A stretch of DNA of 64,000 bases from Aminobacterium mobile DSM 12262 (lineage in GTDB: Bacteria; Synergistota; Synergistia; Synergistales; Aminobacteriaceae), in contig NZ_JAFZ01000001.1 of the NCBI RefSeq assembly GCF_000526395.1, positions 1,054,001-1,118,000 of the forward strand, given 5' to 3'. This document shows, piece by piece, positions 3,997 to 50,844 of the stretch (positions are counted from its first letter, which is position 1; each line of letters begins with the position of its first letter). Both the position numbers and the translations under genes were made by a program. The notes below the pieces were generated by a model. That model worked only from the letters and a program-made list of their open reading frames with translations. It had not been told where the DNA came from and did not search any database.

Positions 3997-4268
3997 ATCC
4001 TCCGATCTCTATTTTAAGAAATATAACAGGTCTGTATATCTGCCTGTCTTGCGAGTACAATGATAAAGACTCGTAATTTATAATACCCTTGTTTGGGAAT
4101 AACAATTATAAATGTATCTCATCCCTCTCTCTTTTTCCAGCACTTCTTCATAGAAAGGTGTTGTGAGGAGCTCGAAATGTTGGATTTGATTGAGACGGTG
4201 ACGCCGGGCACATTTTCATAGGAAGGTGCTATGGGAAGGGATGAGGCACAGGAAGGCAGGGAGTGCAT
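3997..4268 (+). other. yedF-selA intergenic region with possible leader peptides
   Basis: 272 bases between two divergent selenium genes. A TATAAT lies at 4079-4084 (+ strand) without a good -35. A short ORF at 4177-4221 (MLDLIETVTPGTFS) has a GAGGAG site 6 bases before its ATG. A second short ORF at 4231-4296 (21 codons) overlaps the selA start out of frame. A 19-base imperfect direct repeat (TTCATAGAAAGGTGTTGTG at 4147 and TTCATAGGAAGGTGCTATG at 4215, 3 mismatches) precedes each of them. No tRNA-Sec was found here on either strand. Function is unproven. Confidence 0.4.
4020..4028 (-). promoter_or_regulatory. Candidate extended -10 promoter for yedF
   Basis: On the - strand the sequence reads TGTTATATT, an extended -10 (TGn plus TATATT, 5 of 6 to consensus), about 20 bases ahead of the yedF ribosome-binding site. 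No good -35 is seen. Inference from sequence only. Confidence 0.4.
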
Positions 4269-5675
4269 ATGGACGCAAAGAAAAATGAAATCTTAAAAAA
4301 ACTTCCCGCTATGGACGGGTTGTTAAACCAACCCTGGGTTTTCTTATACGAAAGACAGCTTGGCAGGGAAATGGTAAAAGGTGTTTTCTCACAGATTCTT
4401 TCAGAAGTCCGAAAAGCAGTGTTAGAAGACGTGCCAGTAGACGCTTCTCTAGAAGGAGTGAACACGAAAGCTGAGGCCATTTTACAGAGACGAACCACGC
4501 CAGGCCTGCAAGCTGTAGTGAATGCTACTGGGGTGGTTGTTCATACTAATCTGGGCCGTTCCTGTCTTCCCCAGGAAGCGGTAGAGGCTGTAAGTCACGT
4601 TGCAGCTCGGTACAATACACTTGAGTTTAACTTGCTAGAGGGGAAACGAGGACAGCGGAATGCTCACGTAGAGTGGCTGCTTTGCCAAGTAACAGGGGCT
4701 GAGGCTGCCATTGTCGTTAACAATAACGCAGGTGCCGTTCTTTTATGTCTTGCTGCGCTGGCTCGGGAAAAAGAAGTGATTGTCTCTCGGGGGGAGTTGG
4801 TAGAAATAGGGGGCTCTTTCAGAATACCGGATATTATGGCTTTCTCAGGAGCCCGTCTTGTAGAGGTAGGAGCGACAAATAGGACGCACCTTCGTGACTA
4901 CCATCGAGGCCTTTCTGATAATACCGCCATGGTTCTGAAAGTTCACCCATCCAATTTTAAGATAGAGGGTTTTACCGCCATAGTCGATAGAGAAGAATTG
5001 AGCTGTTTTGCAAAAGAAAATGGCCTCATTTTCATGGAAGATTTGGGGAGTGGTGTTCTTGTGGATCTCTCTCCTTGGGGGTTGGTGGGAGAGCCTACTG
5101 TTCGAGATTGTATTAAGGCGGGAGTAGACCTTGTAACTTTTTCCGGCGATAAGATGTTAGGTGGCCCTCAAATCGGAGCTATTGTAGGGAAAAAAGAGCT
5201 TGTGGATACATTGCGAACGTACCCCCTTCTACGAGCATTGCGCGTAGATAAAATGACATTGGCAGCCTTTGAAGTTATTCTCAGAATGTACCTTCAGGAT
5301 CGGTGGCAAGAGGTTCCCACATTAAAGATGCTTACGTTGGAGTTGGAAACTTTAAAAAAGAGAGCTCGGCGTCTTAGGGGCATGCTGAAAAGAAGATTCC
5401 CGCATATAATTGCGACGGTGGTGGAAACCCAAGATGCAGTAGGTGGCGGAGCTTTCCCAACCACAATCATAAAAGGCTATGGGGTGGCGTTGCAGATCCC
5501 TGCATTAGGTAGTGCTGGAAGCCTCCAAGCCCTTTTGCGTAATGCAGCCATGCCAGTGGTGGCAGGAGCGTCAGAGGATTGTTTGATACTTCATTGCCGT
5601 ACATTAATGGAGGGCGATGAGAGTCGGATCGTGGAATCTCTCTCTTCTATTGGGGAGGTGGGAATTTGTGAATAA
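4269..5675 (+). CDS. selA: L-seryl-tRNA(Sec) selenium transferase
   Basis: Pyridoxal-phosphate enzyme converting seryl-tRNA(Sec) to selenocysteinyl-tRNA(Sec) with selenophosphate from SelD. 468 residues, the usual length. The PLP-binding lysine lies in [17 protein letters not shown], at residue 295 when counted from the ATG at 4269, the same number as in E. coli SelA. GTG at 4263 is in frame, but the GGGAG site (4258-4262) is 6 bases from the ATG at 4269, so the ATG is preferred. selB overlaps its 3' end by 8 bases, giving the classical selA-selB pair. With SelD (48.5 kb) and SelB it shows that the organism makes selenoproteins. Confidence 0.96.
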
Positions 5676-7608
5676 CCGCGAAATTTCTTTAGTTTTGGGC
5701 ACGGCAGGACACATTGACCATGGAAAAACTACCCTTGTTAAAGCTCTTACAGGGGTGGATTGTGATCGGCTCAATGATGAGAAAAAACGAGGTATTACAA
5801 TTGAGCTGGGTTTTGCTCCCCTTAAACTTTCAGATGGGCGTATTGTAAGTTTGGTGGATGTACCAGGTCATGAAAAATTTATTCGACAGATGGTGGCAGG
5901 AGCTTCTGGTGTAGATGCTGTTATGCTTGTTGTTGCTGCAGATGAAGGCGTTATGCCGCAGACGAGAGAGCATCTTGCCATTCTTAACTTGCTTGGTGTC
6001 TCAGATGGTCTTATTGCCATCTCTAAAGCGGATTTAGTAGATGAAGAGCTATTAGATCTTGCTATAGAGGATGTGGCAGACTTTGTACGAGGGACGTTCT
6101 TGGAAGGAAAGGCTATAGTACCAGTTTCTTCCGTGACGGGAAAGAATATCCCTAAGCTTATGGAAGAGTTGAGTGCTCTTGTGGATAGAGTGAAAGTCAG
6201 AACTCGCCAAGGCCCTTTCTTTATGCCTATCGACAGATCTTTCCCTATCTCTGGTTTTGGAACCGTTGTAACGGGAACGGCCTACCGAGGTCAGATTTCT
6301 CCGGGGATGGATGTGTCTATTTTGCCATTGAACCGAGACGTTCGAGTTCGAAGTGTGCAGGTTCATGGGAGCTCCGTAGATGTGGCCTGGGCCGGACAAC
6401 GAGTGGCCATTAGCCTGTCGGGTGTATCTCTTGAAGAGTTGAGCAGAGGGGATATTGTTTGCGCCAAAGAAATATTCCGCCCCACTCGATGTTGTGATGT
6501 GGAGCTTTCTCTTTTATCGTCATCGCCGGAACCTCTCTCCCATTGGCAGCGGGTAAGGCTTCATGTAGGTACAGCAGATGTGCTTGCCAGGGTATCTCTT
6601 TTTGACAAGACAAAACTTTTGCCTGGAGAAAAAACGGTAGCGCAGCTCGTAATGGAAGAAGATATTGTAGCTTCCATAGATCAACGATTTGTTATCAGGT
6701 TTTACAGTCCCCTTGTCACTATTGGTGGAGGCAAAATACTGTCTCCCTATGGGCACAAGCCGAAAGGGAAAGGCGCCAAGGAAGATTATATGGATGGCCT
6801 TAACCATTTCTTGGAAGCTGAGGATTCTGAGAAAAGATTGGAAATTCAAGTTCATTCACACGGAATCCTTAAAAAAAGTGATGGAGTGCTTGCCCTTCAG
6901 GAATTACCGGAAGATTTGGATAAACTGGCCCAAAGTTTGGAAAAAAGAAAAAAAATAGTTATTCTTTCAGCTGGGGCCGATTATTATGTCTCGTGGAGCG
7001 AGTACAGTGATCTATTAGAGAGGACAGTATCATTCTTGCACTCCTTCCATAAAGAGCGTCCTCATCAGGAAGGAGCCATTATAGATGACTTGTTGACCGG
7101 GCCTTTGAAAACTGTAGAGCGCAGATTGGCTCGTACCTTTCTTGATCACTTGCAAGCTGATGGCGTGTTAGTGATAGCAAACAAGAATGTAGTAAGGCTT
7201 CCAGATTTCGCACCTCAAGATGATTCTGCTTTTTTTAAGGATCTGGATCGTTTCAATGCCTTTTGTGACGAAAAAGAGTTTCAGCTCCCAATGATAGAAG
7301 AAGTTCAGGAAGGGCTAGGTATGAAGGAGAAAGATTTTTCTCGTTTTCTCAAGGATATACGGGAGCGAGGAGAGGCATCTCTTGTGGGAGGGAAATATGT
7401 ACTGTCACAGCGGGTAGAGAACAAGCTTCTTCATATCCTTAAGGAAATAAAAGATAACATGACGATAGGCACGGTACGTGACATTACGGGGAGCAGTCGT
7501 AAGTATATACTTCCTCTTTTGGAATATATGGATGCTAAGGGCTTTACTCGCCGAGTTGGAGAGAAAAGAATTCTACTCTTGCAGCGCTTAGAGAAAAAAA
7601 GTCAATGA
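5668..7608 (+). CDS. selB: Selenocysteine-specific elongation factor SelB
   Basis: EF-Tu-like GTPase that brings Sec-tRNA(Sec) to the ribosome at UGA codons marked by a SECIS hairpin. 646 residues from the GTG at 5668, which overlaps the selA stop and is preceded by GGGGAGGTG. G1 is [13 protein letters not shown], switch [11 protein letters not shown]3 DVPGHEKF, G4 SKAD. Domains II-III follow (about residues 175-345). The C-terminal half carries the winged-helix repeats that bind SECIS RNA (for example [20 protein letters not shown] and the last helix-turn-helix [19 protein letters not shown]). A longer in-frame ORF starting at 5617 inside selA is unlikely. Translationally coupled to selA. 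Confidence 0.96.
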
Positions 7609-45815: not shown

Positions 45816-46326
45816 TATAAAAAGAGTGTTAAAGAGGATTGGCAATGAGATCATAGAGTGGAACAGGGGAACAGAAGGGATAGCATTACTCGGAATACAA
45901 AGGCGCGGAGTGTATTTAGCTAAGCGACTTCAGGATGTGTTACTCCAGCAAGAAAAAGTAAAAATTCCCACAGGAGAACTTGATATAACCTTGTATAGAG
46001 ATGATTTAACGTTGCTTCACGAGCAACCTATGGTCCATAGCACTTCCATTCCTTTCGATGTCAGTGGCATGAATCTTATTTTAGTAGACGATGTGATCTA
46101 TACGGGACGGACTGTGCGGGCGGCTTTGGATGCTCTTATGGATCTTGGGCGTCCTTCCTCTGTGCAACTTGCAGTATTAATAGATCGAGGACATCGTGAG
46201 CTGCCAATACACCCGGATTTTTGTGGTAAAAAGGTTCCAACTTCCTCTGATGAAATTGTGGAAGTAAGAGTGGAAGAGCTTGACGGCGTAGATGATGTGG
46301 TTATTTGCGAAAAACAAAGTGAATGA
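45775..46326 (+). CDS. pyrR: PyrR, pyrimidine regulator / uracil phosphoribosyltransferase
   Basis: 183 residues from ATG 45775 (AAGGAG 7 bases upstream). PRPP-binding motif LILVDDVIYTGRTVRAALDAL, IALLGIQRRGVYLA, LYRDDLT, and PSSVQLAVLIDRGHRELPI match the PyrR family: UMP-dependent mRNA-binding attenuation protein with uracil phosphoribosyltransferase activity. No pyrimidine genes or PyrR-binding loops are seen next to it, so it is separated from its usual targets here. Overlaps rnc upstream and the next gene downstream. Confidence 0.93.
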   Translation: MDLMQKAIIMTKDDIKRVLKRIGNEIIEWNRGTEGIALLGIQRRGVYLAKRLQDVLLQQEKVKIPTGELDITLYRDDLTLLHEQPMVHSTSIPFDVSGMNLILVDDVIYTGRTVRAALDALMDLGRPSSVQLAVLIDRGHRELPIHPDFCGKKVPTSSDEIVEVRVEELDGVDDVVICEKQSE

Positions 46327-47164
46327 AAAATTCTCCCCCACGAGAAAAGTGAGGTTGTTTTTTGCCTTTTTGCTCCTATTGTTCCTCGTCCCTTGCAGAG
46401 CTTTAGCTATGGACTTGTGCGTATCATCTCCATGGTTGTCTGTTATGTCCAATTTTATGGGGGGCGTATATGTAACAGTCCATCCTATGGTAGTGTGGTC
46501 TGAAGATGGATTGGAAAAAAGAGTGGCGCCAAAAAAAATGTCAGAAGATCTCCCCTTACTGGTATTAGATTATTCAGACGCTCAAAAATATGGAATATCT
46601 GAAAAAAGGAAGAATCTGTATGTTCTTTATCGAAATCTTCCTTTCCCTAGAGAGAAGTTAGATAGCTATTTTGCCGATCCCTCAGTGCTTCCCTTTATTG
46701 CTCAACGAATTTTGAATGTTTTTTCCAGCCTCGACACAGAGCATTATTTTTTCTACCAACGGCGACTAGCGGAGTTTCAGGGGCGTTTAGAGAGCACAGT
46801 CCTTCTAGGGAGACAATTACTGCAAGGTAAAAAAGTCTACGACCTCTCAGCTTCATATGGGGAGCTTTTACGGGCAGCCCGATGTGAAATATTGCGTCCT
46901 TCGGGGGAGAATGTAACTCTTTGGAAAAATGGAGAGTCTTTGGATAGCTTCAAACAAAAAGTAGAGGAAATTATAAAACAAGGTATACCAGTAGTTTACG
47001 ATGCACAAACACCTCGATGTATGCAAGATACGTTGCTAAAGATCAAATCTTCTCAAATTATTCTCCTTAAGCGACCTACTATAGAGGAAGATCTTATTAT
47101 TTCTTTATATGACCAATATCTGTCTATATGGAATATAGCAGCTTCTTCCGCTACATCTAATTAG
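46319..47164 (+). CDS. Exported protein resembling ZnuA/TroA-type solute-binding proteins
   Basis: About 281 residues from GTG 46319 (ATG 46292 also in frame). A clear signal peptide (KVRLFFAFLLLLFLVPCRALA) precedes the mature part. The layout VSSPWLSVMSNFMGGVYVTVHPMV, later YFADPSVLPFIAQRILNVFSSLDTEHYFFYQRRLAEFQGRLE, and GKKVYDLSASYGELLRAARCEI, parallels cluster 9 metal-binding proteins, where a DP..A..I block and the long linker helix are typical. Metal-binding histidines expected at the usual places are largely missing, and no ABC permease/ATPase is adjacent. Function unknown; the relationship is a tentative pattern match. Confidence 0.6.
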   Translation: MNEKFSPTRKVRLFFAFLLLLFLVPCRALAMDLCVSSPWLSVMSNFMGGVYVTVHPMVVWSEDGLEKRVAPKKMSEDLPLLVLDYSDAQKYGISEKRKNLYVLYRNLPFPREKLDSYFADPSVLPFIAQRILNVFSSLDTEHYFFYQRRLAEFQGRLESTVLLGRQLLQGKKVYDLSASYGELLRAARCEILRPSGENVTLWKNGESLDSFKQKVEEIIKQGIPVVYDAQTPRCMQDTLLKIKSSQIILLKRPTIEEDLIISLYDQYLSIWNIAASSATSN

Positions 47165-48484: not shown

Positions 48485-49531
48485 CTAAATATTATCAACG
48501 ATTTCAATCATACCTTCTCCCGGTTTGAATCTACCTATACATATACTTCTTTCAAAACCAGCATTTTTTAAAGATTGTATTATCCCTTCTGCCTTGTCAG
48601 GGCTCACAGCCAACAAAAACCCACCAGATGTCTGAGCGTCATAGAGGATATCTACTTCCTCATCGGGGAAAGCCTGCATTCCATGAACCATATCTTCGTA
48701 TTGAATGCGGTTATTGTATGTTCCTGCTGGAATCAACCCGCTCTCTGCCAGCTCTATTACACCTGGAAGTAAAGGAACATTGTGAAGTCCAAGAACTAAA
48801 TTAAGATTCTTCAGGGAAAGCATATCCAATGCATGTCCGATCAGACCAAAGCCTGTGACGTCGGTACAGGCATGGATAGCTATTTTTTGGTCTTCTGAAA
48901 GAATCATAGGAACATTGTTAAGGGTTGACATCCATCGAATGGCCTCTGACGGGCCTTGAGGATCTTCAATCATGTCAGCTTTAATGCCAGTAGCTATAAT
49001 TCCTGTCCCAACAGGTTTTGTAAGAATAAGAAGATCTCCAAGCTGAGCTCCTACAACTTGCCATGGGTGCTCTCGTGCCACTTCTCCATATACAGCGAGC
49101 CCATATTTAGGTTCTTCGTCTTCTACGCTGTGTCCTCCCACTAGAAAAGCACCGGCTTCTCTTACTTTAGAATACCCACCTTCTAAGATTTCCCTTAATA
49201 TTTCTATATCGAGTTTTTTTACAGGGAATCCTACTATGTTCAAAGCTACTATTGGATGTCCTCCCATAGCAAAAACATCACTGATAGAGTTACATGCAGC
49301 TATTTCTCCCCACTTTCTCGGATTATCTACGATTGGCGTGATAAAATCCAAAGTGAGAATACCGAGTCGTTTTTCATCTATAATCCAGAGAGCAGCATCT
49401 TCACCAGAAGCCCAAGTAGAAATGATCCTTTCATCATGAACTGGAGGAAGATTTCGTAGTATTTTTTCCAGGTCCGCCGGACCTATTTTAGCAGCTCACC
49501 CACTTGTTCTTGATAGTTCAGTTAATCGCAT
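48485..49531 (-). CDS. selD: Selenophosphate synthetase with active-site selenocysteine (UGA)
   Basis: Makes selenophosphate from selenide and ATP for SelA. Normal decoding gives only an internal 288-residue frame starting MDFITP. Upstream, in the same frame with no other stop, an ATG at 49531 (GGAAAGGAGG 7 bases before) reads MRLTELSRTSG-UGA-AAKIGPADLEKIL, matching the SelD N-terminus; the UGA (49498-49496, codon 12) sits exactly at the catalytic Cys/Sec of the GU/CxxK motif, with Lys15 retained. Later SelD motifs follow: GEDAALW, LTLDFITPIVDNPRKWGEIAACNSISDVFAMGG, DVTGFGLIGHALDM. 348 residues with Sec. SelA and SelB are encoded at 4-7.6 kb. A short SECIS hairpin follows the UGA. Confidence 0.95.
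49470..49484 (-). promoter_or_regulatory. Candidate bacterial SECIS element in selD
   Basis: On the - strand, AGGUCC-GGC-GGACCU: a 6-bp perfect stem with a 3-base loop starting with two G residues. The stem begins 11 bases and the loop 17 bases after the UGA, fitting the bacterial SECIS rule I recall (loop about 16-37 bases downstream, G in the first two loop positions). It would be the SelB-binding signal. Confidence 0.75.
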
Positions 49532-49558
49532 GGTCAATCCTCCTTTCCTTCGAAAGAA

Positions 49559-49736: not shown

Positions 49737-50844
49737 ATGGTTAATATCCCGAACTCTACAGTATTGGAGGAACTGCGTTCCCTTAAAGAAGAACTGCAGG
49801 AAAGCCTTTGACCTCGTTTTTTTGGAATCTCGTTTGCAAGAGCTTGAAAAAAAGACAGTTGCTCCTTCTTTTTGGGGGAGTGGAGAGGCACGAGGCATAA
49901 CCCAGCAATTGTCTTGGATACGAGACAAACTAGGCTCATGGAGTCAGGTCGTCTCTGAGTTTCAGGATTTAGAAACATTGGAAGAGATGTTACGAGAGGG
50001 AGATGACAAGGAACTCCAGAGTGAATTTGATAGTCGGTCGGTGGCTTTGAAGAAAGAAATAGAAAGGATGCAACTTTTGGAGCTTCTTAACGAAGATTAT
50101 GACCATGGTAATGCCATTCTTTCGATTCATGCTGGTTCAGGAGGGCTTGATTCTCAGGATTGGGCCGACATGCTTTATAGAATGTATGTTCGATGGATAG
50201 AACAAAAGGACTTCCACATAAAAATCTTGGATTTGTTGAAAGATGCGGAGGCTGGAATTAATAGCGTTACACTGCTTGTGGAAGGGAACTATGCCTATGG
50301 GTATTTAAAATCAGAAAAAGGGGTACATCGTTTAGTCCGTATATCTCCTTTTGATTCGGCGGGGAGACGACATACAAGTTTTGCTTCAGTAGATGTGGTT
50401 CCGGAGCTTCCAGAGGATGTGGATATAGAGATTCGCCCTGAGGATATTCGTATCGATACATTCAGATCTAGCGGGGCTGGTGGGCAATATGTGAATATGA
50501 CCGATTCTGCAGTGCGAATAACTCACTTCCCATCTGGAATTGTGGTCAGCTGTCAAAATGAGCGTTCTCAACATATGAATCGAGCAGTAGCCATGCAAAT
50601 TTTAAAAAGCAGGCTTTATCAGCGGGCTCTTGAAGAACGCCACAATGAATTAGAAACCATAGGAGGAGAAAAGAAGGAAATTAGCTGGGGAAGCCAAATT
50701 CGGTCATATGTGCTCCATCCATATACATTAGTTAAAGATCATAGAACTGGCTGCGAGACTGGAAATGTCCAGGCAGTTTTAGATGGGGAGTTGGAAGACT
50801 TCATTATGGCCTATCTACGCTGGAAGAAACAAAGCCGCAAATAA
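49737..50844 (+). CDS. prfB: Peptide chain release factor 2, with programmed +1 frameshift
   Basis: Releases peptides at UGA and UAA. Two overlapping frames: codons 1-24 from ATG 49737 (MVNIPNSTVLEELRSLKEEL..) end in CTT-TGA-C, with TGA at 49809-49811; a +1 shift on CTT continues as GAC (49810) into DLVFLESRLQELEKK. The product is join(49737..49808,49810..50844), 368 residues, the normal RF2 size. AGGAAAG just upstream of the slip site resembles the stimulatory Shine-Dalgarno element. RF2-specific SPF tripeptide (RISPFDSAG) and the GGQ motif (SSGAGGQYVN) are present. RF2 autoregulates by this frameshift. Divergent from selD. Confidence 0.96.
49803..49812 (+). promoter_or_regulatory. RF2 programmed frameshift site
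   Basis: AGC-CTT-TGA-C: slippery CTT followed by an in-frame UGA in the poor termination context UGAC, the same core as in E. coli prfB. An AGGA at 49798-49801 can act as the internal Shine-Dalgarno-like stimulator, though it is shorter than the E. coli AGGGGG. Confidence 0.92.

Follow-up and report, generated by a model that had tools for sequence, protein, structure and literature searches.

Selenophosphate synthetase, SelD, is among the two bacterial selenoproteins with the widest distribution, and 38 selenocysteine (Sec)-containing members are listed in PMC1794560. PMC9312934 and PMC4561486 also count it among the widespread selenoproteins, and the latter treats its SECIS. The phylum Synergistetes is rich in selenoproteins (PMC5029168), and 13 selenoproteins have been listed for an Aminobacterium genome (PMC12013277). 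Four constraints have been described for the bacterial SECIS (PMC13188914): the apical loop spans 3-9 nt on an upper stem of 4-16 bp, a G stands among the first two bases of the loop, the UGA and the loop are 16-37 nt apart, and the minimum free energy does not exceed -7.5 kcal/mol. The same source places Sec12 of SelD within a flexible active-site loop. The efficiency of UGA recoding in vivo is reported as 30-40% (PMC4513850).

The selD gene described here lies in a 64,000-nucleotide stretch of the Aminobacterium mobile DSM 12262 genome, referred to below as the window (Table 1). It is of the ordinary Sec-containing type, a long-known kind that has been catalogued since at least 2006. With other Sec-containing SelD proteins (SPS2-type; COG0709, TIGR00476) it shares a predicted catalytic Sec near the N-terminus, the UxxK motif, and a bacterial SECIS downstream of an in-frame UGA; no functional difference was seen, and the hairpin, with its loop at 17 nt, is close to the minimum of the 16-37 nt range. 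Cys-type SelD, represented by the 3u0o and 2yye chains and by six genomes of another Synergistota family, belongs to the same protein family and has the same active-site loop. In these proteins, however, Cys replaces Sec, and the AGGUCC-GGC-GGACCU hairpin is absent from all six of the Synergistota Cys genes.

Table 1. Position and basis of assignment of selD, its recoding signals and related genes (window coordinates unless a genome position is given).
Feature	Position	Strand	Basis
selD, selenide water dikinase (selenophosphate synthetase), 348 codons including one predicted Sec codon	48485..49531	-	frame, TIGR00476, PDB 3u0o and 2yye
UGA, predicted selenocysteine codon; residue 12, active-site position, UxxK motif	49496..49498	-	frame, PDB alignment, relatives
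Ribosome-binding site AAAGGAGG (AAGGAGG), 7 nt 5' of ATG 49531	49539..49546	-	sequence
SECIS-type hairpin; 5' arm 49485-49479, loop GGC 49478-49476, 3' arm 49475-49469	49469..49485	-	folding, codon conservation, recoding, four constraints
prfB (release factor 2), divergent neighbour of selD; CTT-TGA-C programmed +1 frameshift site 49806-49812	49737-50844	+	
selA, selenocysteine synthase (profile match 4293-5645)	4263..5675	+	557 bits
selB, Sec-specific elongation factor (profile match 5692-7575)	5617..7608	+	363 bits, SelB winged-helix domains
UGA-containing grdA and two grdB-type genes	genome C1:795409-796945 and C1:346277-347317		in-frame UGA

Coding sequence on both sides of the UGA

The selD frame reads from an ATG to a TAG at 48485, and its sole internal stop is the TGA at 49498-49496. 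The N-terminal peptide of the product is MRLTELSRTSG-U-AAKIGPADLEKIL. An initial annotation, made from the sequence alone, had placed this UGA at the catalytic Cys/Sec position, in a frame typical of SelD on both sides and preceded by a good ribosome-binding site, and each of these observations held up on closer analysis. The full product matches the NCBIfam selD model TIGR00476 with 333.1 bits (cut-off 125) over profile positions 1-310 of 311, and scores 298.4 bits against the narrower model NF002098, just under its cut-off of 299. The PDB SelD chains 3u0o_A and 2yye_A align from query residue 1 or 3, with Cys opposite the UGA, and the U/C-x-x-K motif is present as UAAK, aligned with the CAAK of 2yye. 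The gene therefore has the marks of a selenoprotein gene, namely an in-frame UGA, homology on both sides of it, and retention of the UGA in relatives. Full-length SelD homology flanks the single TGA on both sides, and the gene product is almost certainly a genuine Sec-containing selenophosphate synthetase, the only SelD of the organism, with the UGA predicted to be read as Sec in conjunction with the downstream hairpin.

If the UGA were a true stop, the gene would instead start at the TTG at 49351 and encode a protein of 288 residues, and a mechanical ORF call at this locus yields exactly that 288-aa ORF. The initial annotation had anticipated that automated gene callers would miss the first 60 codons; this proved correct for the mechanical ORF call, the one type of caller covered. 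However, the shorter protein scores 280 bits against the selD profile and begins at position 63, such that positions 1-62, including the active-site loop, are missing. Moreover, purifying selection in the genus acts on the codons flanking the UGA, which are also conserved in the phylum, and conservation of a SECIS (see below) would not be expected. Termination at this UGA is therefore very improbable. The initial annotation is a correct one, made by hand, for a gene that loses its first 60 codons and its active site in a naive ORF call.

The TGA is present at the Sec codon in 86 of 86 aligned selD loci (83 distinct), drawn from 30 Synergistota genomes, that of the window included, and from 56 contigs (Synergistota, Clostridia, Desulfobacterota and others) that were picked by resemblance to a Sec-type query, so that the lack of Cys among the contigs is partly a product of selection. 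Among 20 further Synergistota selD genes that were read, 14 have TGA and six have Cys. A search of the phylum matched selD in 134 of 188 genomes, a few of them through low-scoring distant paralogues only, and nearly all full-length matches have one TGA. Among the good genomes, 92 of 116 have a selD match, most holding exactly one internal TGA. The initial annotation had named same-genus homologues with a stop and no SelD-like N-terminus as the outcome that would count against it; the TGA and a SelD-like N-terminus are present in the two same-genus genomes alike (80% and 78% identity). Over codons 13-60, comparison with these two genomes gave 27 synonymous and 4 non-synonymous differences for one, and 21 and 8 for the other.

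Decoding of the UGA as Trp, Gly or Cys, through a general code change or through readthrough, would likewise give full-length SelD. However, 19 of the 57 window ORFs end in TGA as a normal stop codon, and a general change of the code is thereby ruled out. The presence of tRNA-Sec, SelA and SelB in the genome also argues against insertion of another amino acid, as does the occurrence in the phylum of Cys-type homologues, which represent the usual Sec/Cys exchange. This possibility, too, is highly unlikely. A sequencing error or a decaying pseudogene, for which no supporting points were found, is less probable still, given that the same TGA occurs in independent assemblies from three species of the genus and from dozens of genera, and that the rest of the selD frame is intact. 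A Sec-containing SelD with a compact SECIS, as first proposed, is the best explanation of the locus, and the machinery for Sec is found in the genome.

The six Synergistota genomes with Cys-type SelD have diverged proteins (~40% identical). Two relatives of these genomes have a diverged TGA-type SelD, with the motif AG-U-MAK.

The hairpin downstream of the UGA

A 6-bp stem with a GGC loop, starting 11 bases after the UGA, had been reported in the initial annotation and was recovered by folding. The hairpin, UAGGUCC-GGC-GGACCUG (core AGGUCC-GGC-GGACCU), has six Watson-Crick pairs and a terminal U-G; the first Watson-Crick pair is 11 nt after the UGA and the loop is 17 nt after it. The hairpin falls within all four bacterial SECIS constraints, in agreement with the bSECIS model: the loop is 3 nt long on a stem of 6-7 bp, its sequence, GGC, has G in the first positions, the distance from UGA to loop is 17 nt, and the folding energy is -9.0 kcal/mol, or -8.4 kcal/mol for the rigid hairpin alone. 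A scan of the window against Rfam at gathering thresholds found no SECIS family.

The hairpin did not stand out when 44 nt were subjected to plain dinucleotide shuffling (z -1.3), and a plain shuffle of a 58-nt stretch gave no excess of hairpin stability. Because these plain shuffle tests were weak or null, synonymous recoding was used as the fitting null, with the 20 codons after the UGA recoded 1000 times according to the gene's own codon usage. None of the 1000 recodings of this selD had an equally stable SECIS-type hairpin, and the hairpins of the two same-genus selD genes were matched by 7/1000 and 1/1000 recodings. When 37 Synergistota sequences were treated in this way, the fraction of recodings that equalled or bettered the natural sequence had a median of 0.025 and was at or below 0.05 in 23 of the 37, with weaker results in GC-rich genomes. 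In the same 37 sequences, the stem and loop codons GGT, CCG and GCG are invariably used whenever their residue is conserved (100%, compared with 13%, 28% and 28% expected), and an ATA codon is used in 89% (32% expected), while adjoining codons vary. The fixed stem and loop codons, taken with the recoding result, show that selection acts on the RNA and not on the protein alone, with strong synonymous constraint on the hairpin. No covariation was seen within Synergistota for the 17-nt hairpin, the stem of which hardly varies.

The position of the hairpin differs between lineages. All 37 Synergistota sequences have their best SECIS-type hairpin 17 nt after the UGA. The corresponding distance is ~20-21 nt in 11 non-Synergistota sequences (several from Desulfobacterota-type genomes) and 32-33 nt in 21 others, from Clostridia and Desulfuromonadales. 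Under a rigid test, 11 of the remaining sequences have a proximal hairpin and three have none. The 33-nt hairpin has support from covariation: 17 distinct sequences together form 133 out of 136 possible pairs, compared with a maximum of 122 in shuffles that take the sequences as independent and ignore kinship, and eight double-change pair types represent compensatory changes. On balance, these data favor a model in which the selD SECIS has shifted along the coding sequence between lineages, giving at least three registers (loop at ~17, 21 and 33 nt) that differ in the peptide encoded downstream (GPADLEKIL, GPTVLSDTL and LAQVLCQL), the Synergistota form being minimal and nearly invariant with a GGC loop. 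The set of selD hairpin positions could help refine models of the bacterial SECIS.

Selenocysteine machinery and the predicted dependence of SelD on its own product

The genes selA, selB, selC and selD are all present in the genome, selD in one copy. The tRNA-Sec scores 67.7 bits (cut-off 47) and is located ~40 kb outside the window; the true start of selB probably lies 3' of 5617. In-frame UGA codons also occur in genes for glycine reductase, namely GrdA (CFV-U) and two GrdB-family genes (VILTST-U-GT), with hairpins following, and Sec made in this organism would therefore have other clients. The genome has no TIGR03309 match for yqeB (Se-cofactor trait) and no TIGR03167 match for the tRNA 2-selenouridine synthase (ybbB/mnmH); with no selenouridine synthase found, SelD appears, as far as tested, to serve the Sec pathway alone. 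A scan of the window for other UGA-containing genes gave no convincing second selenoprotein, and the hits were rejected as adjacent genes, short upstream extensions or non-coding frames.

From the known biology of Sec insertion and of SelD catalysis, the following sequence of events would be expected. A ribosome would reach the UGA at codon 12, where SelB-GTP with Sec-tRNA(Sec), bound to the GGC-loop hairpin just 3' in the mRNA, would compete with release factor 2 and deliver Sec. The resulting 348-residue SelD, with Sec12 and the nearby Lys15 in a flexible N-terminal loop, would convert selenide and ATP to selenophosphate for SelA, which in turn would supply Sec for SelD itself and for other selenoproteins such as glycine reductase. 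SelD would, in this sense, depend autocatalytically on its own activity, and all Sec synthesis in this organism would go via one Sec-dependent SelD with no Cys copy.

The initial annotation concluded from this dependence that a bootstrap supply of Sec is needed. The logic is fair, and the genome has no Cys-type SelD, but inherited SelD protein would suffice. Because daughter cells inherit SelD protein, the loop would presumably keep going in dividing cells, and a special bootstrap mechanism need not exist.

Genes adjoining selD

The divergent neighbour of selD is prfB, such that two UGA-recoding genes face away from each other head to head across 205 bp. Many Synergistota genomes of several families, though not all, have this divergent pair, and a birA-like gene frequently separates the two. 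A functional link of selD to prfB was considered, but since some genomes of the phylum lack the pairing, the arrangement is recorded as no more than an observation. On the other side, a gene at 46292-47164 (+) encodes a 290-aa protein with no Pfam match. This gene is convergent with the MFS gene that adjoins selD, and is a conserved neighbour of selD in Synergistota.
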